A stretch of DNA of 20,293 nucleotides from a virus. This document shows, piece after piece, positions 9,961-20,293 of the stretch. The stretch lies in IMG/VR virus record IMGVR_UViG_3300035698_007640, positions 1 to 20,293 of that record; one strand, written 5' to 3'. The translations under genes were made by a program, and so were the position numbers. The notes below the pieces were generated by a model, which saw only the letters and a list, made by a program, of their open reading frames with translations, searched no databases and was not told the origin of the DNA. The first letter of the stretch is position 1. Each line of letters begins with the position of its first letter.

Positions 9961-10707
9961 TTAAGCATTTCCTGCTCGCGGTTCATAAGAGGTCCATCTT
10001 GCTTCCTGCAAAACCATACCAGTATGTAATAACTGGTACGCTATCATTTCACGACTTAATTCATCTTCTGCGAAACGGACAAGGAAATAAAAATCGTAAT
10101 CCGCCGTTAAAGCTCCAGATGGGGCGGCCGTATAAGTCGCTGTTGCTGATTCTGAAGAAAAATTGTTTGCAACGCTACCGGCCACTTCAACCCCGTCGTC
10201 ATATAACGTAATTGAAGATGCGTCTACGGGGAACTCATCAAGTGTAAAATCAGTTAAAACGCCGTTACCAGATCCTATCGCTTCGGCGGTTATTTCATAC
10301 TCGTGACTCATTTTAATTAAAAATGATTCATATGCACCTTTTCTCGCAACATAAAAATCCCAGATCGTGTTCATTTCGGATTCAGTAAGGAATTTAAGAT
10401 TTAATCTAAACTCTCTTAAACCTTTATCCCATTGAGAACTTGTCCGTTTTCGGCCGCTTTCAAATTCAGTTTTATATGTTTTAAACCGTATACTTTCGGT
10501 CATACCAAATTCAGGCGTTATTGAAAGAACGGCGTTAGCCATTGTGGTAGTTGAAGATGTCGTCGATGTAGTCGTTGACGTTGAAGATGTCGTTGACGTT
10601 GACGTGCTCGATGTAGATGTCGTTGACGTTGTCGTTGATAGCGTTGTCGTTGATGTCGATGTAGTCGATGTAGTTGTCGTTGATGATGATGTGGTCGATG
10701 TACTCAT
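9961..10707 (-). CDS. Distal tail protein, DUF2460 family, with N-terminal Ser/Thr tract
   Basis: A 248-residue protein. From residue 56 it matches the DUF2460 distal tail family: FKTYKTEFESGRKRTSSQW, then a helix and IWDFYVARKGAYESFLIK, the usual F-Y-x-A-R-x-G motif. This family forms the ring between tail tube and hub, as in gene transfer agents. The first 55 residues are almost only Ser and Thr. The only good ribosome binding site (AGGAG, eight bases spacing) serves the ATG at 10707. The ATG at codon 56 has none, so the tract is translated. The site lies in the end of the tape measure gene. Confidence 0.85.
   Translation of the reverse strand: MSTSTTSSSTTTTSTTSTSTTTLSTTTSTTSTSSTSTSTTSSTSTTTSTTSSTTTMANAVLSITPEFGMTESIRFKTYKTEFESGRKRTSSQWDKGLREFRLNLKFLTESEMNTIWDFYVARKGAYESFLIKMSHEYEITAEAIGSGNGVLTDFTLDEFPVDASSITLYDDGVEVAGSVANNFSSESATATYTAAPSGALTADYDFYFLVRFAEDELSREMIAYQLLHTGMVLQEARWTSYEPRAGNA
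10543..10704 (-). repeat. Ser/Thr-coding low-complexity tract (N-terminal, DUF2460 protein)
   Basis: Fifty-four codons, all Ser or Thr except one Leu. At DNA level nearly every codon has the form W-C-N. The string TCAACGACA recurs five times, so part of the tract arose by in-frame repeat expansion. It is the longest of five such tracts in the window. Confidence 0.9.
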
Positions 10708-10710
10708 ATA

Positions 10711-12744
10711 TTAAACTCCTACTTTACTTATCGTATTTCTCAGTCCACCACGTAATCTTATTGAATTATCAACAGCTGCTTCGTAAACGTCAGGGTGTTG
10801 AACGAGATGTTCTCTAAATGATTTAGCGTCGATTGTTTGTATATACCAATTATTTACAATGCTCGGGGATCCACCACCAGAAACTTGACCGCGATTTATT
10901 TCGTGTAATCTTCCTTGGCCTAAAGACCTCATTCCAGTACGGGTAACGACACCCTCCCCTTCTTCTAATATTGCAGGTACAACACCACCGGCTTGGTACC
11001 GTTTAATTCTTCCACTGGCGCCACGGCCAGCCATTCCGCCTTGATGAAACAAACTTGCTATCGAAGCGCCCGGCATTCCAAACGCTGATAATGCCCCTGT
11101 TATCACCATCTTAGCCGCAATTTGAGATAACATTCCTAATATAGCATTGCCAAAATTTACTGCAACTTGTTGTAATGAATCGAACTCGGCTCTCATAACT
11201 TTAAAAAAGAAATCTGACATAGCCGTATGCGCCATTTTAGCCGATTGTTTCATAATGCCAGGAAAATCTTTAGTCCAAACTTTATCCATAGCACCTAATA
11301 TCGTTTCTGTTTCCCTTATAGAATCGCTCATTGTATCGTTCAAATCTTTACGATTCCCTTTTACTCTAATAATACCTATATCAACGCCTTCGTATCCCTC
11401 TCTTAATCTTTCGAGAAGAGTCTTTGCTTCAGAAGCTGACATCATAGAATTTACAATTTCTTCAGCCGCATCGAGAAATGGAGTACTTACTTCAGCCGCA
11501 ACATTTTTCCAATCTTGACGTCTGATATTATTAGCCGCGTCTTGTAATGCCAATGCCATTTTTCGTGCTTCGACCTGTGCGCCACCTCTAAGTGCATTCG
11601 CTAATTTATCAACCATTCCTTTTGTGTTCATTAACCAAGAAGAAATCATTAACTTTGATCTGTCAATAATTTGAAATAATGAATCAAGAGCCGCGCCTGA
11701 AAAACCAACTATTGCAAACGATATTGCTTTAAATCCTTGAACCAAACCTCGCCATATTGTACGGGAAATCTCAAATACGGTTACAACTGTAAGTGCAAAC
11801 TGCCGCCACGAACCGGATAATGCGTCTGTTGACTTTCTAAAATTATCTACTGCTTTTTCATGCTCTTTTAATCTTTCAGTTATCGTTACGATTATCCCGC
11901 GAATAACAAGTGACTTTGTTTGAAACTCGCCAACAGCTTCTAGCAAATCTCCCCACGCATTACCTAATTGCGCCGTTGCACCGGCATATGTGTAAACATC
12001 TTTCGCCGCCCTACCAAAATAATTCTTTTCAGCCATTTCACGCATAAGCGCTGTGAATATCATTGACTTTGGTAAATTCTTACCAATCTGCAACCCGTAC
12101 CGTGATAATGAGCCCGTATATCCGGCAAGCGCCTTTGAGATTATTTCAGTTGAAGTTTTAAGGTCCTTACGTTGAACAGTTGCAAATTCAATAGTCGCCT
12201 GCGTTGCCCTTTTAATGCTCGACATTGATTTTAAACCGCCAACTGATATAAGAGAGTCGACAACTCCCATAATAGCTTCGTCACCAAAACGTGAACTTTT
12301 CTGTACGGTTGAAGCAAACTCTTGAAAACTATCCGAAGTCTGTTTTGAGAACATACCGGCTTGCGATAATGCAAGGTTCATTTTATGCACAGCATCTTCT
12401 TGTTGAGCGGCCGCGGCTGTTGACTTCTTCTGCATATCAATTAACGGCCTTAACGCAAACATCCAAACCAATATAGCGTTACGCAAAGCACCAACTGACC
12501 GCCTAAAGCCATCAGTAACGCCTCGCATTTGTCTTGAAGATTTAGAATAAGAATAAGCGGCTTTTCGTGTTGAAGCCGCCATTTTATCCATATCTAAAGC
12601 AACGCCTTTCCCTGCAGTTTTAACATCAAGGCCTAATCGCTTGACATTATTACGCATATCTTTGGTTGCTTTTACATAACGATTAGTTGCGAGATCTTTA
12701 AACCTCAGTTCAACTTGTATCCCTTGTTTAATATCTTCAGGCAT
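10711..12744 (-). CDS. Tape measure protein
   Basis: A 677-residue tape measure protein, which sets tail length and guides DNA into the cell. Typical features are a helical, charged N-terminal half with a conserved-looking region around FQEFASTVQKSSRFGDEAI and ALAGYTGSLSRYGLQIG, a hydrophobic stretch at about residues 86-105, further hydrophobic helices near 335-365, and a Gly-rich end with the common GGVVPAILEEGEGVV motif. At about 1.5 angstroms per residue the tail would be near 100 nm, an estimate from the helical model only. The ATG overlaps the end of the tail chaperone frame by eight bases and has only a weak ribosome binding site, so it may depend on coupled translation. Confidence 0.93.
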   Translation of the reverse strand: MPEDIKQGIQVELRFKDLATNRYVKATKDMRNNVKRLGLDVKTAGKGVALDMDKMAASTRKAAYSYSKSSRQMRGVTDGFRRSVGALRNAILVWMFALRPLIDMQKKSTAAAAQQEDAVHKMNLALSQAGMFSKQTSDSFQEFASTVQKSSRFGDEAIMGVVDSLISVGGLKSMSSIKRATQATIEFATVQRKDLKTSTEIISKALAGYTGSLSRYGLQIGKNLPKSMIFTALMREMAEKNYFGRAAKDVYTYAGATAQLGNAWGDLLEAVGEFQTKSLVIRGIIVTITERLKEHEKAVDNFRKSTDALSGSWRQFALTVVTVFEISRTIWRGLVQGFKAISFAIVGFSGAALDSLFQIIDRSKLMISSWLMNTKGMVDKLANALRGGAQVEARKMALALQDAANNIRRQDWKNVAAEVSTPFLDAAEEIVNSMMSASEAKTLLERLREGYEGVDIGIIRVKGNRKDLNDTMSDSIRETETILGAMDKVWTKDFPGIMKQSAKMAHTAMSDFFFKVMRAEFDSLQQVAVNFGNAILGMLSQIAAKMVITGALSAFGMPGASIASLFHQGGMAGRGASGRIKRYQAGGVVPAILEEGEGVVTRTGMRSLGQGRLHEINRGQVSGGGSPSIVNNWYIQTIDAKSFREHLVQHPDVYEAAVDNSIRLRGGLRNTISKVGV

Positions 12745-13042
12745 TTATTTTTTTCTCTGATTGTTTATTTATTTCATCTTCAATGATAACAAAAGCGTCT
12801 AATAATTTCGCCGGTTGTCTACCTGCCGGCCCTGTAAACGGAAAATTACCTTTTTGAAAATAAGCAAACCATTTTAAATACTGCCTCGATATTGGCCAGA
12901 CTAATTTAGTCGGGCACTCAGTTAAAACTTCACCGTCAATTTCGTATATCTTACCTAATTTTGACGGGCACTTCATCGTCTTTGGCAATCTTGGGTTACA
13001 TTCGTGACACTGCAAATTCCACTTTGACACCCAGACTGCCAA
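12737..13042 (-). CDS. Tail assembly chaperone T-like extension, expressed by -1 frameshift
   Basis: A 101-residue frame that follows the gpG-like gene and precedes the tape measure, the position of lambda T. Its only start near the front is a TTG at 13042 without a clear ribosome binding site, while the frame is open back to the slippery site at 13048-13054. It is therefore best read as the C-terminal part of a G-T fusion of 248 residues (145 + 103). It has cysteines at C12, C15, C25 and C43 (CHEC, KCP, ECP), as in small tail chaperone T proteins of other phages. The fusion would bind the tape measure during tail assembly. Confidence 0.8.
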   Translation of the reverse strand: MAVWVSKWNLQCHECNPRLPKTMKCPSKLGKIYEIDGEVLTECPTKLVWPISRQYLKWFAYFQKGNFPFTGPAGRQPAKLLDAFVIIEDEINKQSEKKINA

Positions 13043-13044
13043 TC

Positions 13045-13482
13045 TCAGTTTTTTTCCTCTTCCTCACTAATCTCAGTTTCGCCCCAAATAGCGTTAGCCA
13101 ATTCCTTAATTACATTACGGGGTATATGTTTAATTGTTTCATCAGAAACAATTACGTATTCATCAGTCCCAAACAGTAACTTCTTCGTAGTTTTAAATTC
13201 AATTGGTTTACCATCAAGAACAAAGTTCTTAAACCCTCTAAGACCCATTCTTAATATTTCCAAGTCCTGTTCTAACGGCTTCATTTTTGCGGTGAAGTTA
13301 ATATCGAGATCAGGCTTGCCATCTTTAACCGTCGGTTTAATATCAGGCGTCATATATTCGCTAAGCATCTTCGTTTTTGTTATTGAATCAAGGGGCCCGA
13401 TAATCCATATTGTAGGATTTTCTTTATCCCACGGTACCGTTATCTCGATTGTTGAACCAAAAGCAATAGGACTTATTGACAT
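13045..13482 (-). CDS. Tail assembly chaperone G-like protein
   Basis: A 145-residue protein that is the shorter product of the tail chaperone pair. It lies between the tail tube/completion genes and the tape measure, as gpG does in lambda. The C-terminal half has IPRNVIKELANAIWGE followed by an acidic end (EEEE), typical of such chaperones. AAGGAG lies six bases before the ATG. The slippery heptamer at the last codons allows a minority of ribosomes to make the longer G-T form, and the ratio of the two products is important for tail assembly in lambda. Sequence similarity to known gpG was not checked. The call rests on position, frameshift and composition. Confidence 0.8.
   Translation of the reverse strand: MSISPIAFGSTIEITVPWDKENPTIWIIGPLDSITKTKMLSEYMTPDIKPTVKDGKPDLDINFTAKMKPLEQDLEILRMGLRGFKNFVLDGKPIEFKTTKKLLFGTDEYVIVSDETIKHIPRNVIKELANAIWGETEISEEEEKN
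13048..13054 (-). other. Programmed -1 ribosomal frameshift site (A AAA AAC)
   Basis: On the minus strand the zero-frame codons are GAA AAA AAC TGA, giving the canonical heptamer A AAA AAC directly before the stop. Slipping back one base continues as CTG AGA TTG GCA into the T frame. Purine-rich Shine-Dalgarno-like sequence (GAGGAAGAGGA) lies just upstream and could stimulate slipping. No convincing downstream hairpin was found by eye. Confidence 0.85.
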
Positions 13483-13503
13483 AATGTTCTCCTTTTCTTA
13501 CAC

Positions 13504-14085
13504 TTAATAAAGTGAATCTCTGTCAAACGTCTCAATAGTAACAGGTGGTAATGAACCGCCTAAATCACTAAAACCACTGCCAGAACGATACATAGTCCGA
13601 CGTTTCACTTTCTTAAGGTATGACTTTTTAATTGTATTATTAACCCATCTTTTTAATTCTTTCTTTATTGCAACACCCTGACGCTGTGTTATTCCTAAAA
13701 ACGGCCTTGTAATTCTTTTTTTACCCGCGCCTAATTCCTGATGAATCATTCCCAGAATATCTCTACTAGGAAAACCAACTGGCCGGATCCCAATTGAATA
13801 ACTATTTTTACTGTTTTTCCAATACGATACTGACTTTGACATCAATCCAGTATTCCATAAAGCACGATTAGGATAATTAGATGTTTTCTTTTTTCTCCTA
13901 ACCGTGCTCGGCGCCAATTTTTTCATAGACCCGCCACCAACTGTTTTTTGTTGACGTATACGTGCTTTTGCATCTTGAGCGATCTTATGAGCTGTACGTT
14001 TTAAAGGTATGCTGGCATCCTTTAATTCGCTTAATGTAGGAATTATATCCTCATCTATAACAACATAAAATTCGCTACCTGCCAT
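13504..14085 (-). CDS. Tail completion / virion morphogenesis protein (Mu gpG-like)
   Basis: A 193-residue basic protein that looks like the phage virion morphogenesis family: GGGSMKKLAPSTVRRKKK, then RALWNTGLMSKSV, then IHQELG and RPFLGIT near the C-terminal part. Members complete the tail or head-tail joint. The ATG at 14085 lies four bases after the stop of the tail tube gene and has no ribosome binding site, because the upstream DNA is the Ser/Thr tract of the tube protein. Coupled re-initiation is the likely mode. An upstream TTG at 14154 would only read the tract in another frame and is not used. Confidence 0.82.
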   Translation of the reverse strand: MAGSEFYVVIDEDIIPTLSELKDASIPLKRTAHKIAQDAKARIRQQKTVGGGSMKKLAPSTVRRKKKTSNYPNRALWNTGLMSKSVSYWKNSKNSYSIGIRPVGFPSRDILGMIHQELGAGKKRITRPFLGITQRQGVAIKKELKRWVNNTIKKSYLKKVKRRTMYRSGSGFSDLGGSLPPVTIETFDRDSLY

Positions 14086-14089
14086 AATA

Positions 14090-15082
14090 TTAAGCCGTAG
14101 TTGTAGTGGTACTTGTTGATGTAGTTGTAGTCGAAGTCGTCGTTGAACCAGCAAGGGTTATTACTAATTCATCATCTCCGGAGTTCATATTCAATTCCAA
14201 TGTTGCTGAATATGTCCTGATACCGTCACGATCTGACTCACTTAATCCGGTGTACCGCGCTTTAGGTGCCGCTATTGTTAACGTATAATCACTTGAAGAA
14301 AGAAGGATAATACTGACAGCCGCTTCTGTCGTTGATATTAAACTCGCTAAAAAGTCGTGGTCAGCAACAAGTTCTTGTTCGGGATCAAACGTCAAAATAG
14401 GGTCTCGTGCAACTATTTGACCGTAATTAATCCCGCCTACGTCTGTCGGTTTAGGCCGCATTGAAATCTCATTCTGAAGATTAATTTCAAGACTTCCTAA
14501 AAGTAATGCTTTTCCTACTATCGTACACGTTGCATTTTGAAAGACAAAAACTTCTTCTGAGTTAAACTCTGGTGACGGCATAGATTCATCTTCGTGGCTT
14601 GAATATTTACCTTGAAAGGTATACTCAATCATAACCGGCTCGCCAATATTAAAAATAAGCCGGGCGTTACCCATTGCACCGCAAAGTATCTTTTTAAGAC
14701 CATCTTCCCAAACTGCGATCGTTATAGTTTCCATACTCGCAAGAGCCGAGACTGGCTGATATGCAGAAGATGTTGAGCCAGTTAACGTTTCATTTAACCC
14801 GCACGCTTGCATAAATGGGCTTCCTGCAGGTGCAGTACCCTTTGTTGCAGGTGCCATTAACTCAGCACGAAACGTCACCTCTGCTAATCTCTGTCCGGTA
14901 ACGGAGTTCATTCGCGACAAAGTTTTGCGGAAAGGATTTCGTTTAAACTGTGTCGGATTAAAGTTCCATGTCGGTTCATAAGCTAATATTTTTGCTTGAG
15001 CGGCCCCGATAGTTTCGGCCGTACCTTTAGTGGTTTCTACTTTACCTCCAACCTGTACTCTTCGTGTAATCAAACCAGGCAT
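14090..15082 (-). CDS. Major tail tube protein with C-terminal Ser/Thr tract
   Basis: A 330-residue protein in the place of the tail tube subunit. It resembles siphovirus tube proteins: VTFRAELMAPATKGTAPAGSPFMQACGL, with the F-x-A-E-L and G-S-P-F-x-x-A-C-G elements, followed by beta-rich sequence (MIEYTFQGKYSS, LGSLEINLQNEI). Tube subunits stack as hexameric rings around the tape measure. Residues 313-329 are only Ser and Thr, ending in Ala330, so each of the many copies would carry a flexible tail, most simply on the tube's outer face. AAGGAGG lies five bases before the ATG. It is followed after four bases by the tail completion gene. Confidence 0.82.
   Translation of the reverse strand: MPGLITRRVQVGGKVETTKGTAETIGAAQAKILAYEPTWNFNPTQFKRNPFRKTLSRMNSVTGQRLAEVTFRAELMAPATKGTAPAGSPFMQACGLNETLTGSTSSAYQPVSALASMETITIAVWEDGLKKILCGAMGNARLIFNIGEPVMIEYTFQGKYSSHEDESMPSPEFNSEEVFVFQNATCTIVGKALLLGSLEINLQNEISMRPKPTDVGGINYGQIVARDPILTFDPEQELVADHDFLASLISTTEAAVSIILLSSSDYTLTIAAPKARYTGLSESDRDGIRTYSATLELNMNSGDDELVITLAGSTTTSTTTTSTSTTTTTA
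14096..14146 (-). repeat. Ser/Thr-coding tract (C-terminal, tail tube protein)
   Basis: Seventeen consecutive Ser or Thr codons just before the final Ala codon and stop. Nearly all are W-C-N codons with mixed third bases, so the tract is kept at protein level rather than as one DNA unit. It occupies the place where the next gene's ribosome binding site would be. Confidence 0.88.
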
Positions 15083-15094
15083 TGATACCTCCTT

Positions 15095-15580
15095 TTAAAA
15101 AGTGATTCTTTCTCTTATCGAGACTTCTATTTCGTATATATGACAAAGTACGTGTCCGAACATACCATTAAAAATTCTTCCCACTACGGGGTTAATAACG
15201 ACTTCGGCTGTGTCGTTTAAATTAGGCCTATTCCTAAACTGTTGACAAATATCTTCAATAAGGTCTTGGCACGCTGTTTCAGTTGAATTTTCATCGTCTA
15301 ATGAGTACGCGCCTCTTAACAAAAAGTTATGTACGACTCGTTCGACACCATGGGAATTTGTAGCATTACCGGTATCGCCACTGGTTGCGTTGACTTCTCT
15401 TGAAAAGGAAGGCCGCAATATTTCAGTAAAATTTACTCGCGCCTGATCATCCGGCTTAAATAAATCCTTGTATGTAGACCAATCCTTAGAGTATCGTTCA
15501 TACTCATGGACTTCGCCTATATTAGTGACGTTAGTGGTAAGTATAGTTTTTATTTGTGCTCGTACAGTTGACAAACTCAC
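15095..15580 (-). CDS. Tail terminator-like protein (gpU position)
   Basis: A 161-residue protein just upstream of the tail tube gene, the usual place for the tail terminator or a neck protein. It starts with GTG; a purine-rich AAAGGAAGG is upstream with rather wide spacing. The layout fits small alpha/beta terminator proteins: a helical N-terminus (STVRAQIKTILTTNV), a beta core with VERVVHNFLLRGAYSL, a helix (CQDLIEDICQQFRN) and a C-terminal strand (LCHIYEIEVSIRERI). In such phages this protein caps the tube and binds the head. The family match was judged by layout, not by search. Confidence 0.65.
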   Translation of the reverse strand: MSLSTVRAQIKTILTTNVTNIGEVHEYERYSKDWSTYKDLFKPDDQARVNFTEILRPSFSREVNATSGDTGNATNSHGVERVVHNFLLRGAYSLDDENSTETACQDLIEDICQQFRNRPNLNDTAEVVINPVVGRIFNGMFGHVLCHIYEIEVSIRERITF

Positions 15581-15637
15581 GGGTATCGCCGCCTTCCTTT
15601 GTGCCGGGGGATTATTTAGAGTACGCGAGCGCCGGCA

Positions 15638-16402
15638 TTATCTATTCTTTGGTGGATGAGTTAAGTAATTCGATCCCCAAGAAAAATTCAAATCAAAGTC
15701 CTTAAACGCATTAGCACCAGCTTTTGATTCTTCAGGGCCACCTTTAACGTGGCTCTTATATTGTCCAAAATACAGTTCAGCTAAATTTGTATATTCATCA
15801 GCTTTTCGTATATAATCGACAACGTCAGCTTCTATTGTAGATTCTTCTGTCTGTGAATATTTAGCCGCTAAAGCTGCACAACAAAAAGCTGTTGCCAGAT
15901 CACAAACTGCATCTACATCATTGTCGGGAATTGTGCAGTCTGTTTCGGTAACTGTATGCGGAATAACAAAATTATACCTAATAGTATATCCGGTTGACGG
16001 TCTTAAGTTAATAAACCTTAAAACAGTACCGCTTAATTTCTTGTATAAAATCCAATCATTATTATCAACATATTGAGGTACTTGAATAATGCTTGAAACC
16101 GGATACTCAATTCGACTAATAATAGTTGAAAAATTAGTTACCCACGCATCCGGTAAATCAAAATCGTATTTCGAACCGTTAGCCGTAGTATCTTCGTGAA
16201 TTTTTTGTTGAGGCCTATCATTCGAATAAGTACGAATAGCCTTTTTAATACCAAGCTCTTTTTCGTGCGGTTTCAAGATCTCTGAATCATCTTGAAGATT
16301 AAAACTAAGTTTACTTCTAAAATCCTCGATAGTACAAGCGCCTATCGTCGTGGACGTAGACGTTGTCGAGGTCGTCGAAGTCGTACTGGTTGAAGTTGAC
16401 AT
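15638..16402 (-). CDS. Probable head-tail adaptor protein with N-terminal Ser/Thr tract
   Basis: A 254-residue protein between the small virion proteins and the tail terminator, where head completion or adaptor proteins are found. Residues 2-19 are only Ser/Thr. From about residue 22 there is a helix-rich region (TIEDFRSKLSFNL, KELGIKKAIRTYS), a beta part (WILYKKLSGTVLRFINL) and helices near the C-terminus (AVCDLATAFCCAALAAKYS), like adaptor proteins of the gp6/gp15 type. The role is inferred from position. Before the ATG is AGTGAG, a weak ribosome binding site. The leader AATAAAAAGTGAG is shared with the gene at 17348. Confidence 0.6.
   Translation of the reverse strand: MSTSTSTTSTTSTTSTSTTIGACTIEDFRSKLSFNLQDDSEILKPHEKELGIKKAIRTYSNDRPQQKIHEDTTANGSKYDFDLPDAWVTNFSTIISRIEYPVSSIIQVPQYVDNNDWILYKKLSGTVLRFINLRPSTGYTIRYNFVIPHTVTETDCTIPDNDVDAVCDLATAFCCAALAAKYSQTEESTIEADVVDYIRKADEYTNLAELYFGQYKSHVKGGPEESKAGANAFKDFDLNFSWGSNYLTHPPKNR
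16346..16399 (-). repeat. Ser/Thr-coding tract (N-terminal, adaptor-like protein)
   Basis: Eighteen Ser or Thr codons directly after the ATG. The first 13 residues of the protein (MSTSTSTTSTTST) are the same as in the protein encoded at 16857, although the codons differ, and ACGACTTCGACGAC is shared at DNA level. Confidence 0.9.
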
Positions 16403-16428
16403 ATCGACTCACTTTTTATTAAGCTAGA

Positions 16429-16857
16429 TTAAGCTAAATAAATGTATAATCTACAGCCTGCTGATATTTGCTTAACCTGTAAATCACTTACCATTAAAGG
16501 TTTGGCTAATGGAGGGCCATTAATAACTCGACCATGTGCAGAAACATCATCTGCCGTTGCTCTCCAAAAATCGTTAGCACCGACCTTATTAGGATGTACA
16601 ATTCTAACTTCGACACTATCGTTATCTTGCGTTGCAATAAAACTCCAACCTATTATATTAAGGTTCTTGTTTCTTGCTGAATCTCTGACTAATCCAGTCC
16701 CTGCGATAACAAGAGGGTTACCTACCGATTGAATCCCAGTTGAAGTCGTCGAAGTTGTTGTTGTAGAAGTCGAAGTCGTCGATGTTGTTGACGTCGAAGA
16801 AGTCGAAGTTGTTGTAGAAGTCGAAGTCGTCGAAGTCGTTGACGTAGACGTTGACAT
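16429..16857 (-). CDS. Small virion protein with N-terminal Ser/Thr tract
   Basis: A 142-residue protein. Residues 2-40 are Ser and Thr only. The remainder, from G41, is a compact beta-rich domain of about 100 residues (NLNIIGWSFIATQDNDSVEVRIVHP, read in pieces, ending CRLYIYLA) and was not recognised. It lies among the small genes just after the capsid gene, so a head decoration or neck role is likely. AAGGGG lies seven bases before the ATG. After the stop there is a tandem 10-base repeat (ATTAAGCTA twice, 16418-16436). The start region faces the Ser/Thr end of the previous gene across only 38 bases. Confidence 0.6.
   Translation of the reverse strand: MSTSTSTTSTTSTSTTTSTSSTSTTSTTSTSTTTTSTTSTGIQSVGNPLVIAGTGLVRDSARNKNLNIIGWSFIATQDNDSVEVRIVHPNKVGANDFWRATADDVSAHGRVINGPPLAKPLMVSDLQVKQISAGCRLYIYLA
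16738..16854 (-). repeat. Ser/Thr-coding tract with exact 26-base direct repeat
   Basis: Thirty-nine Ser or Thr codons following the ATG. The same 26 bases occur at 16757-16782 and 16808-16833, offset by 51 bases or exactly 17 codons, so one in-frame duplication is visible. No codon in the tract ends in C. Confidence 0.92.
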
Positions 16858-16895
16858 AATTTTCCCCTTTTATATTTTTAAAACACTAACAAAAA

Positions 16896-17348
16896 TTACA
16901 AAGTCGTTGTCGTTGACGATGAAGTCGTACTTGTCGAAGTCGAAGTCGAAGTAGTACTCGTCGAAGTCGTCGTTGAAGTAGATCCTGAAGCCTCTATTGA
17001 ATCAGATGCAATTGCCCGCCAATGAGTACCATCACATTGAAGAAATACAGATGCGTAAGGACTTAAATTTATAGTATCATAATCTACGCCACCACCATTA
17101 AACCCGGCTGACGTTACAACGTCATTAAGAATGGAAGTGCCGACATTTGATATTATTAATTCAACACCCTTATATACAGCCGCAGCCGCTGGTAATGTGA
17201 TGTTAACGTCATCGCCTGAGATAAGAACAACTTTATACTTCATTAACTCTATTTCGGTAAGAGTGGCAGAAGATGTTTTTGTAACAGTTATCTGATTCTT
17301 CCTGAGGCCATGAGGAAATCTTGTATTTCTAGACATTATGAATACCAT
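16896..17348 (-). CDS. Small virion protein, paralogue A, with C-terminal Ser/Thr tract
   Basis: A 150-residue protein whose first 120 residues are paralogous to the neighbouring gene product at 17385-17753. Shared pieces are TRFPHG/TRMPHG, ATL-E-E, TLPAAAA-YKG, AGF-GGG-YDT and CDGT-W. Residues 123-149 are Ser and Thr only, ending in Leu. Its place just downstream of the capsid gene suggests a capsid decoration protein or head fibre. The start at 17348 is chosen because GAGGA lies seven bases before it; an ATG four codons later has no such site. Folding into a small beta domain is likely. The role is an inference. Confidence 0.65.
   Translation of the reverse strand: MVFIMSRNTRFPHGLRKNQITVTKTSSATLTEIELMKYKVVLISGDDVNITLPAAAAVYKGVELIISNVGTSILNDVVTSAGFNGGGVDYDTINLSPYASVFLQCDGTHWRAIASDSIEASGSTSTTTSTSTTSTSTSTSTTSSSTTTTL
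16902..16982 (-). repeat. Ser/Thr-coding tract (C-terminal, paralogue A)
   Basis: Twenty-seven Ser or Thr codons before the final Leu codon and stop. Two Ser are AGT and the rest TCN. The tandem paralogue B lacks the tract, so it was gained by A or lost by B after duplication. Confidence 0.9.
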
Positions 17349-17384: not shown

Positions 17385-17753
17385 TTAACTGCCTGCAGGT
17401 GAAGCCCCAACTATATACCAATATGTTCCGTCACAATAAAGAAAAAGTGCGCCGAGTGCCGGAATAGTAGCGGTATCATAACTTGTACCACCGCCGCTAA
17501 AACCAGCTGTTACGAAAACTTTATTAGTAGTAGAATTTGCATGAATACTCGCAATTATTAGAGAATCACCTTTATACGTTGCTGCTGCTGCCGGTAACGT
17601 TACTTTCTTTCCTGTCCCTGATTGAGTTACTGCATTATACTGCAAAACTTCAGTTTCAGAAAGAGTAGCGTCTGCGGATTTCGCGAGTGAGGGCCTTGCA
17701 TCTCTAACACCATGCGGCATTCTTGTTTGTCTTGTGCGAATAACAGCCATCAT
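17385..17753 (-). CDS. Small virion protein, paralogue B (decoration candidate)
   Basis: A 122-residue protein, the first gene after the capsid terminator. It is paralogous to the gene at 16896-17348 over nearly its whole length but has no Ser/Thr tail, ending ASPAGS. The domain is Ala-, Gly- and Thr-rich and probably beta-structured (TLPAAAATYKGDSLIIASI; FSGGGTSYDTATIPALGALFLYCDGTYW). A capsid decoration or head fibre role is suggested by place and size only. AGGAGG lies four bases before the first ATG and seven before the second, so the ATG at 17750 may be the real start. Confidence 0.65.
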   Translation of the reverse strand: MMAVIRTRQTRMPHGVRDARPSLAKSADATLSETEVLQYNAVTQSGTGKKVTLPAAAATYKGDSLIIASIHANSTTNKVFVTAGFSGGGTSYDTATIPALGALFLYCDGTYWYIVGASPAGS

Positions 17754-17827: not shown

Positions 17828-20293
17828 TTAAGATACACCAGAAACGATACCCGCCGCAAAGCCACGGTAATCTGGAAGTACTCCACCATACTCGTGTCGG
17901 ACTTTGTATCGTAAAGTGTCATATACGAATACGTTTCCAACAGTCGGCTGGTCTTGTACCAGAATTTCAGGTGCTTGTTTTCCGTTTAAAAAGCCCATTT
18001 CGATTAAATCGACTTCGGCTTTTCCGGCACTAAGGAAATAGTTATTTTCATCACCTCGAAGGAACGGAGATACTTTAATCTTCGCTGAGCCCTTCAAAGT
18101 GTTAACTGCGTTTTCGCCACTTTCCGGATGCAGAGTTGAATTAATCAACTGCTCTGCCGTTCCTTTAAGTGCTCGAGGTACCCATAATGTTACATCTTCA
18201 AGACCTAAAGTAGCGGTGATCTTGTAGATTTCTGAATTGATAGCATGTGCTGCATCAGTTGTTCCAAACAGACCGCGAGCAACAGTTAATGCGTCAGTTG
18301 CAACACTATCAACTCTGATATACTCACCATATATTTCAATAATATCGCCCGCTTTGAAATATTGGCCATCACCAGTTGTTACATTAAGAGTAGTCCCTGC
18401 AGCTGCAAGAGGATCGTTGACAACTAAAGACTTAAACCCTTGCTCGCCTTGATTATACATACCTGTTAACAATGTATTCAATGCGTCAAAGTCAAGAGCT
18501 GACGTTGAATAGTTGTTATGAGCAGCTACGTATAAAGCGATTTGATTTGCAGTTCCAGTCGCGCTCGGCCACTTTACAGCAGCGTTAACACCACTAGAAG
18601 TATACCCTAACATCAAATCAAAAACGAATTGATTTAAAGTTCTGTTTGCTGATTGAGCTAACTTACGAGGAATCTGAGTTAACTGTCTTAAATCGTCATT
18701 GATGATTGCCCGACGAGTAACAGTTACCAAACCACCTTTTGTTGAGATACCATAAATTTGCTCACTATCAACCGGGAAACCGAGTTCTGGATATGACGGT
18801 GTCGCCGTATCAGTTGCAGTGCCTTGAGTTGTACGTGCCGCAATAACTTCTGGCAATACACCAAAACCACCCCATCTGACCAATTCTTGCATTTTGAAAT
18901 CTTTGACAGAAATAATGTTAGCAATTTCTCTCCAAAGTTCAGGTAATGCTTTATATTCTTTTGACATCCGGCGATTCATCGTATAACCCAACATATACGA
19001 GAAAGAACCTGATGTAGCTTCTTTTAATCTCTTATGAGGAATTTGACCGGTAACTTCGCTGTCGCCTGTGATAGCAACGTATGCTTCACGAATACTGCCC
19101 CAAGTGTCACATCCCGCATATTTATCTTTTTCATGATCTTCTGGCTCATGACCAAACGTCAAATCAAGGCTAGCTTGAAGTTTATCAACACCAGTACGAT
19201 TCATTTTAATTTCAAGGCTTGTACCATCACCTAAATCTACATCGCCACTTTCTGATAACTTAGCGAGCATTTCTTTTTCATCTTTGATTCTTTCAACAAT
19301 TTGTGATTCTTGAAAAATCATACCGCTAAATTGCTTGTTAATCTTAATCTGCACAGGTGACGGCAAACCAGAATTTTCAAGCAACGTTTTCAAAAGAATA
19401 CGGCATTCTGTAACCTTTTGATTCTTAAGCAATTGATCTACTTTGATTTCAAGGTCCTTATTTTTCTTAGCCATTTCTTCTTCGTCTTTTTTCTTTTTCT
19501 TTAACGCAAGAGGATCTTCTTCTTCAACAGCTTCTTTACTCCATTTTTCGAGTATAGCAGCCGCTAAAGGAAGTTTTTTATCCTTAACAAGAGAAACAAC
19601 CTGTTCAATCATTTTCTTGTTTTTTTCAGCTAACGCTAAATCAGATTCTTTAACGTTCAAAGCATCCATCGCGCTTGTTGCAAGCTTAATTGCTTCTGCT
19701 AAATCAGTCGCTTCTTTATTCTCGGCATCTTTAGCTTCAGCATCAGCTTTTTTCTTATCGTCTTCGGCTTTCTTTTTTTCTTCTTCCTTTACGTCTTTAT
19801 TATCGTCTGCTTCTTTTAACAAAGATTCAAGGATTTTCGCAACTTGATCTTCCGTGATGTTTTTTAAATCTACACCCTCCAATAAATCAGGTCGAGTGCT
19901 TTGAAGTATTTTAATTAATTTTTCAAACATTTGATTTTGTCTCCTTTCAACTTCATTTAAACTTGACATTAATCTTAAAAATCCACCGCCCGCTGCGGGG
20001 TGTGTTACTAAATCAACACTAAAAACCTCATCAATACTATTAACAACTTGCAAGGGTCTGCCTTGTACCATTTGAAGATTTTGATTCCCGGCCGCGTTAA
20101 TAGACAATCCTAAAGCTTTTTTCATTCCTTTTGACCATGCAGAAGTCAACAAATCCTTAAGCCATTTAGCGCTTTCATTTACTGTTAATATACCAGTTAA
20201 CCCAGAAGCTTTTTCACCAGAAACGTCGACGGTCTCATACTTAACATTAGAGAGGAAACCAGCGATATTTTTAGGGAACCCTTCGGGTCGCAA
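17828..20293 (-). CDS. Capsid polyprotein (partial): protease end + scaffold + major capsid protein
   Basis: At least 821 residues, cut by the right edge; the apparent first codon is a TTG at the edge and the frame probably continues. Residues 1-112 look like the end of a prohead maturation protease (LGLSINAAG; SVDLVTHPAAGGGFLRL). Residues about 113-350 are charged and helical (KEEEKKKAEDDKKKADAEAK), as in a scaffold or delta domain. Residues about 395-821 are the major capsid domain, ending YDTLRYKVRHEYGGVLPDYRG, similar to Mu gpT-like capsid proteins. Within it residues about 624-694 look like an inserted beta domain (TTLNVTTGDGQYFKAGD, EYIRVDSV, LTVARGLFGTTDAAH). The protease probably releases the mature capsid subunit from the scaffold during head maturation. 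Confidence 0.87.
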   Translation of the reverse strand: MRPEGFPKNIAGFLSNVKYETVDVSGEKASGLTGILTVNESAKWLKDLLTSAWSKGMKKALGLSINAAGNQNLQMVQGRPLQVVNSIDEVFSVDLVTHPAAGGGFLRLMSSLNEVERRQNQMFEKLIKILQSTRPDLLEGVDLKNITEDQVAKILESLLKEADDNKDVKEEEKKKAEDDKKKADAEAKDAENKEATDLAEAIKLATSAMDALNVKESDLALAEKNKKMIEQVVSLVKDKKLPLAAAILEKWSKEAVEEEDPLALKKKKKDEEEMAKKNKDLEIKVDQLLKNQKVTECRILLKTLLENSGLPSPVQIKINKQFSGMIFQESQIVERIKDEKEMLAKLSESGDVDLGDGTSLEIKMNRTGVDKLQASLDLTFGHEPEDHEKDKYAGCDTWGSIREAYVAITGDSEVTGQIPHKRLKEATSGSFSYMLGYTMNRRMSKEYKALPELWREIANIISVKDFKMQELVRWGGFGVLPEVIAARTTQGTATDTATPSYPELGFPVDSEQIYGISTKGGLVTVTRRAIINDDLRQLTQIPRKLAQSANRTLNQFVFDLMLGYTSSGVNAAVKWPSATGTANQIALYVAAHNNYSTSALDFDALNTLLTGMYNQGEQGFKSLVVNDPLAAAGTTLNVTTGDGQYFKAGDIIEIYGEYIRVDSVATDALTVARGLFGTTDAAHAINSEIYKITATLGLEDVTLWVPRALKGTAEQLINSTLHPESGENAVNTLKGSAKIKVSPFLRGDENNYFLSAGKAEVDLIEMGFLNGKQAPEILVQDQPTVGNVFVYDTLRYKVRHEYGGVLPDYRGFAAGIVSGVS
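19928..19947 (-). promoter_or_regulatory. Internal ribosome binding site and start in the capsid polyprotein gene
   Basis: AAAGGAG (19947-19941) lies ten bases before an in-frame ATG (19930-19928), codon 122 of the visible frame, at the junction of protease end and scaffold. Initiation here would give a 700-residue scaffold-capsid product without the protease, similar in logic to lambda Nu3 nested within C. Confidence 0.5.

Follow-up and report, generated by a model that had tools for sequence, protein, structure and literature searches.

What role do stretches made almost entirely of Ser and Thr play at the ends of five structural proteins of one phage? This question is raised by the IMG/VR virus record IMGVR_UViG_3300035698_007640, a partial phage genome on an incomplete contig; the entire record, 20,293 bases long, was analysed and is referred to here as the window. 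Its reverse strand encodes a siphovirus virion module which runs from the major capsid protein (MCP) through the tail genes. The answer that we consider probable is that the tracts form disordered surface brushes on virion proteins, most likely O-glycosylated by enzymes of a gene cluster found in relatives, and that together they build a mucin-like coat. Phage particles are usually regarded as bare protein and, to our knowledge, glycosylated virions are recorded for very few phages.

All five tracts are present at the ends of virion-module proteins named in a preliminary description of this DNA, although the description of them as Ser/Thr-only was slightly overstated, with one Leu and one Gly found in two of them. 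The longest comprises 54 residues of Ser and Thr with the single Leu (10543–10704, residues 2–55) and opens the distal tail protein Dit, of the DUF2460 family (9961–10707). Two further N-terminal tracts belong to a small protein with a beta-rich domain (39 residues, 16738–16854, in the gene at 16429–16857) and to an adaptor-like head-tail connector protein (18 residues, 16346–16399, in 15638–16402). At the C-terminus, 17 residues close the major tail tube protein (14096–14146, in 14090–15082), and 29 residues beginning SGSTST, including the Gly, close spike paralogue A (16902–16988, in 16896–17348), where the pure Ser/Thr part has 27 residues (16902–16982). All these features lie on the (-) strand. 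The N-terminal tracts start at residue 2, the C-terminal ones stop one residue short of the stop codon, and Thr accounts for 55–76% of the residues. The Ser plus Thr background of the same gene block is 14.9%; the naive probability of such runs is about 1e-10 to 1e-41 per tract, and that of a run equal to the shortest tract is about 1e-10 over the whole gene block. A chance origin is ruled out by these probabilities together with the conservation of the tracts. Moreover, the tracts are translated, because ribosome-binding-like sequences precede their starts (AGGAG upstream of the Dit start and AAAAGGGG upstream of the beta-protein start, both ahead of the tracts), no Shine-Dalgarno-like sequence was found at the internal ATG after the Dit tract, and the residue at this internal Met position is Leu or Ala in the relatives L026 and L056, where translation must begin before the tract.

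Searches with the tube, Dit and MCP sequences yielded relatives, mostly 46–67% identical, in which the gene order is kept; alignment with the MCP gave 54 viral loci and one GTDB contig. A family tree was built on the C-terminal half of the MCP. In this tree a Ser/Thr group (which includes the window), a poly-Ser group and a tract-free group are separate, with one change each and supports of 100/95, 100/94 and 100/99, and the members of the tract clades all lie on a common branch (100/99); when the clade labels were shuffled on the tree, the one-change grouping was never reproduced. The tract-free group (L071 and its kin) has the connector, tube, tape measure and Dit genes in the same order, with no tract on any of the four, and its spike genes are replaced. 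The tracts are therefore lineage-specific, and each clade has its own fixed composition. Close relatives with otherwise identical proteins and no tracts were not found; relatives normally bear tracts, and the tract-free clade forms a lineage of its own.

Within the two tract clades the placement at orthologous gene ends, which the preliminary description had proposed to look for, is clearly found. The tube carries its C-terminal tract (15–38 residues) in every tract-clade locus that covers that end, the connector carries its N-terminal tract throughout the Ser/Thr clade, and the spike/fibre genes have tracts of about 26–226 residues in both clades. The Dit tract is N-terminal in the window, L026 and L056, and C-terminal in the poly-Ser clade; the other Ser/Thr relatives have C-terminal tracts on short Dit-like proteins instead. 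The junction between paralogue A and the beta protein is also variable: in the window and L026 a stop codon, a ribosome-binding site and a start codon divide the tract, whereas in L021–L024, L028 and L029 a single long protein has the beta domain at its end and the tract as an internal linker. The interpretation of these fused proteins as paralogue A, tract and beta domain was rejected, the N-terminal ~160 residues there being a different domain. Internal stretches of Ser alone are found in L041, L043 and L076. Low-complexity repeats are hard to assemble, but an assembly or sequencing artefact can practically be dismissed, since the tracts recur in many metagenome assemblies made independently of one another, in frame and at orthologous positions every time.

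The preliminary description proposed that selection acts on the Ser/Thr content, and this is strongly supported by the codons, by the constrained order of the residues and by the conserved positions in orthologues 45–65% identical. The codons were described as mixed W-C-N, which is not exclusively so, since 6 of the 59 Ser codons in the window tracts are AGY. In the poly-Ser tracts, 7012 of 7840 residues are Ser and 69 are Thr, and the Ser codons are 50% AGY and 50% TCN; the AGY share is 41% for tract Ser codons across the Ser/Thr relatives and 33% outside tracts. AGY and TCN can be interconverted by single steps only via Thr or Cys. The mixture of both codon blocks, half and half, indicates selection on the peptide, as a DNA-level repeat would not mix them. 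With regard to residue order, Ser-Ser is depleted in the Ser/Thr tracts (34 runs of two versus 177 expected, in 3258 residues) and Thr runs of one or two are enriched, so that Ser almost always stands alone and Thr occurs singly or in pairs, unlike a shuffled order. The residues that interrupt the poly-Ser tracts, mostly Phe, Ile and Leu, avoid close spacing. Clade-specific virion tracts under selection at the protein level are thus well supported.

The length of the tracts varies between close relatives, a check suggested in the preliminary description, and it does so in frame: in near-identical genomes the differences are 318, 54, 63 and 54 bases, all multiples of three. Frame-shifting contingency loci, i.e., phase-variable repeats, were rejected on this account, every change being in frame. 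Identical 7-codon words within tracts exceed the expectation from synonymous shuffling (for instance, 535 versus 9.9 in L046), and words common to genes of one genome are also in excess, 47 versus 7.8 expected in the Ser/Thr clade and 292 versus 10.1 in the poly-Ser clade. From this excess, seen within tracts and, in several genomes, between genes, it follows that the tracts lengthen through in-frame duplications and that copies occasionally pass from one gene to another; the window itself shows little of this, and the process looks like upkeep of the tracts and not their purpose. The same excess is what speaks for the weakest of the roles proposed earlier, that of recombination linkers, in which low-complexity DNA at gene ends would promote the exchange of virion modules and the peptide would be a by-product. 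We regard this role as very improbable: no 7-codon word (0) is shared between the tracts of the window, the mixed AGY and TCN codons make the DNA less alike where a recombination site would call for identity, the tracts remain with the same orthologues, and the tract-free clade has the same gene order without them.

Protein-level selection leads to the question of where the tracts are exposed. The model of the tube core (pLDDT 76.4, pTM 0.80) has the duplicated tube-domain fold of the T5 pb6-like tubes, and it matches the T5 tail tube in Foldseek (E 2.4e-11, prob 1.00, TM 0.71) as well as other tubes of the pb6 type. In T5, the C-terminal Ig-like domain of pb6, after residue 374, projects outside the tube (PMC8718954). 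The tube protein studied here has no C-terminal Ig-like domain; its core ends at residue 311–312 and is followed by the tract alone. Both proteins thus carry a decoration after the core at the C-terminus, but the Ig-like domain is replaced here by a Ser/Thr or Ser tract, which in terms of the predicted fold occupies the place of the pb6 exterior domain and hence would point outward. Exposure of the other tracts is inferred. The spike family was modelled with paralogue B (17385–17753, (-) strand; pLDDT 77.6), which has no tract, and the best matches of the model are to tailspike and T4 gp10-like domains; a match to the capsid spike of a Pseudomonas phage is weaker. Profile searches of the PDB with the spike family and the connector gave nothing significant; the spike was instead placed by its fold. 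The connector, for which neither a family nor a PDB match was found, takes its role from its gene position; the earlier label of adaptor-like has no other basis. Dit is recognised by PF09343 (E 1.2e-19) and by a profile match to Rcc01695 of RcGTA (E 8.2e-6). The order of the DUF2460, BR0599-type and NlpC/P60–Phage-tail_3 genes is the same as in the RcGTA tail module (Dit Rcc01695, hub, NlpC/P60 and megatron); the difference is that Dit here gains a tract, at one end or the other. Where it can be judged, the tract-bearing proteins (tail tube, spikes on or near the head, connector and distal tail protein) would face outward.

Outward brushes of this kind may act without any modification, as flexible spacers or an entropic brush whose disorder, hydrophilicity and length tether distal domains such as the beta domain or aromatic tail repeats at a distance from the particle, the sugar genes of the relatives being unrelated to them. 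This possibility, also raised in the preliminary description, is compatible with several observations. In most Ser/Thr relatives a tract of 102–226 residues joins two folded domains in one protein, a short aromatic repeat is conserved at the end of a giant tract protein, and tract length differs by multiples of three in near-identical genomes. In addition, Ser-only linkers with a spacer role are known between the folded domains of the secreted carbohydrases of Saccharophagus (PMC2386152). The likeness to these long low-complexity stretches is evident, but they belong to bacterial secreted enzymes, whereas the present ones belong to virion proteins, are often terminal and, in the window, are Thr-rich; with 55–76% Thr and a terminal position, the window tracts fall outside the definition of polyserine linkers. 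Unmodified spacers do not explain why Gly, Pro, Asn, Asp and Lys, which spacers usually allow, are strictly kept out, nor do they explain the clade-wide choice between Ser-only and Ser/Thr, the short tube tract, which has nothing beyond it, or the link with glycosyltransferase genes. As a full explanation they seem doubtful to us.

The glycosylated coat, in turn, is suggested by the sugar genes of the relatives. A sugar-modification cluster was found in 6/6 near-complete relatives, on the late-gene strand, immediately ahead of the giant tract gene and the terminase; this adjacency lies within one contig in G002, G005, G007 and G001:C5 and spans contig ends in G003 and G006, where circularity was assumed. 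The Ser/Thr relative G003 (63,263 bases) has four GT2 genes, one GT1, RmlA-, RmlB- and RmlD-like genes, a GDP-mannose-dehydratase-like gene, a DegT aminotransferase and a sulfotransferase. The cluster of G006 contains DegT, a dehydratase, a sugar C-methyltransferase and a cupin, and that of the complete phage contig G001:C5 resembles it. Methyltransferases are found in G005 and G007 together with the conserved putative glycosyltransferases A7/A8, and G007 has a GT9 fusion. In the complete circular poly-Ser genome G002, which has a 127-base terminal overlap, Pfam matches indicate a LicD-family protein, a cytidylyltransferase, an epimerase and methyltransferases, and in G004 an RmlB-like gene follows the tail genes. 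With regard to the glycosyltransferase gene that the preliminary description proposed to look for in the rest of the genome, recognised domains were found in some near-complete relatives (GT2/GT1 in G003 and GT9 in G007) and none on the incomplete window contig. The cluster beside the tract gene is a co-location and not a proof of its target. Nevertheless, since tracts occur on four to six particle proteins and a sugar-gene block lies beside the particle genes in every near-complete member, these phages probably have a sugar-coated outer layer. As a separate observation, the GDP-mannose-dehydratase-like gene of G003 (55216–57285; L085:15216–17285) is apparently split by an intein-like insert with LAGLIDADG_3 and Intein_splicing matches.

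Unrelated phages provide an independent comparison. A pattern scan of IMG/VR for 16 consecutive W-C-N codons returned at least 120 stretches; among the matches listed, 38 have a Ser/Thr tract within an open reading frame (ORF) and 1/120 is similar to the proteins of the window. Six records with the longest tracts were chosen before their glycosyltransferase results were obtained, and 26 other records of at least 30 kb served as controls. GT2 genes are present in 5/6 long-tract phages (6, 5, 4, 4, 1 and 0 genes) versus 6/26 controls (Fisher p 0.011), in a small sample in which genome length, host and mutual independence of the records are not accounted for. One control, L137, proved to hold a 60-Thr tract, and regrouping it post hoc gives p 0.003; another, L113, combines a GT2 with three short Thr tracts at C-termini. 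A modification of the virion, as proposed in the preliminary description, is supported indirectly by this association and by the clusters beside the virion genes of the six near-complete relatives, glycosylation being the step that we infer. It was also observed that L113, L142, L192 and other loci of the scan, from phages in which no similarity to window proteins was detected, have several separate genes that end in a Thr or Ser/Thr tract.

Several points weigh against a glycosylated coat. The incomplete 20 kb contig of the window has no glycan gene, and no GT2 match was found in G002, whose putative glycosyltransferases A7 and A8 gave no Pfam or PDB profile match; these two families were matched in no library searched, and profile searches of the PDB with them gave nothing significant. 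The long-tract phage L143 has no GT2, one or two GT2 domain matches were obtained for G031, a distant relative with no tracts, and the near tract-free clade is known from short contigs only, too short for a clean control. Furthermore, both termini of the RcGTA Dit touch the baseplate (PMC7296036), and the Dit tract of the window may therefore not be freely exposed.

Sugar genes of phages can also modify host surface polysaccharides or DNA, and such genes are common in phages in these roles. In the present family they might likewise serve serotype conversion, superinfection exclusion or DNA modification, their co-occurrence with the tracts reflecting hosts with complex surface glycans. This general use, the GT2 domain of tract-free G031 and the fact that no host was found for the family fit such an explanation; the position of the clusters on the late strand, just ahead of the giant tract gene and terminase, in all six near-complete genomes, and the recurrence of the GT2 association in unrelated tract-bearing phages, do not, and we consider it unlikely.

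According to the glycosylated-coat reading, the tracts are selected protein modules and not DNA elements, intrinsically disordered and very hydrophilic brushes on the termini of virion proteins, which most likely offer closely packed attachment points for O-linked sugars. Synthesis and attachment of these sugars would take place late in infection, through enzymes whose genes lie beside the virion genes, such as dTDP- or GDP-sugar dehydratases, aminotransferases, methyltransferases and glycosyltransferases. Tract length is upheld by in-frame duplication within tracts and occasional copying between them. The benefit of the coat could be protection of the particle against surface proteins and proteases, adjustment of adsorption, or dispersal of the particles. 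More tentatively, it is possible that this constitutes a dedicated virion-coat system, in which homopolymer-like acceptor tracts on four to six structural proteins are glycosylated through a linked sugar-synthesis cluster, with two clade-fixed chemistries (Ser/Thr and Ser-only), and which unrelated phages have reached independently.

The closest known case is that of the mycobacteriophages Che8, Rita and relatives, for which glycosylated virions, phage-encoded glycosyltransferases and a glycan shield are reported (Freeman et al., 2023, as cited in PMC11256854 and PMC12691614). The glycosyltransferases are phage-encoded in both cases; the glycans reported there are on particle proteins, whereas here they are putative, and the putative acceptors here are dedicated low-complexity tracts on four to six proteins, Ser/Thr or Ser-only by clade and up to 915 residues long. 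No description of phage tracts of this kind was found in the literature searched, which covered few subscription papers. If the reading is correct, a phage lineage can possess a mucin-like coat as a permanent trait, and recognisable acceptor tracts make glycosylated virions predictable from sequence. The Ser/Thr, poly-Ser and tract-free clades with the same gene order would offer a natural experiment on coat function, and the homopolymer tracts of up to 915 residues are potential test substrates for glycosyltransferases.

The tracts of this maximal length occur in the poly-Ser clade. The giant tract protein is encoded upstream of the terminase (L046, 801–3545), with counterparts in G001:C5, G003, G005, G006, G007, G008 and G009; it has up to 915 nearly pure Ser residues followed by aromatic repeats like KFKDxTYDY, kept in both clades. 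The contig of the window stops short of the position of this gene. The 915-residue tract is the same in ten loci of a 63.8 kb genome, several of them at different circular offsets and three identical base by base. Nothing in a paper on the Antarctic Ace Lake, the presumed origin of this genome, ties it to a host. The sole match among genome contigs is L036, located on G001:C5 (66,997 bases, 127-base terminal overlap). This contig, by all appearance a complete and circular phage genome, has been placed in a metagenome-assembled genome that represents a GTDB species, an assignment that is probably due to binning, because it has phage genes end to end and a terminal overlap. Pattern searches of that assembled genome and its kin detected no Ser/Thr tracts except an AGT repeat in one genome; the patterns also miss the interrupted poly-Ser tracts of G001:C5.

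The remaining genes of the window module are the MCP (17828–20293, (-) strand; the contig ends at this gene), with an N-terminal protease-like region (PF25209), the tape measure, the BR0599-type protein and the protein with NlpC/P60 and Phage-tail_3 domains. MCP and tube searches gave remote relatives only, and no DNA similarity to cultured phages was found for the tape measure/Dit region. Finally, two minor features of the tracts are worth recording. In L036, L041, L045, L046, L055, L059 and L073 the Ser runs are broken fairly regularly by single Phe, Ile or Leu (Cys-Arg in L045), with spacing peaks at 8 and 14 Ser, reminiscent of sticker-and-spacer sequences such as FG repeats. In the window, the W-C-N tracts at 14096–14146 and 10543–10704 leave all three frames of the strand free of stops, which accounts for the spurious upstream start listed for a neighbouring gene (ORF 13504–14154).

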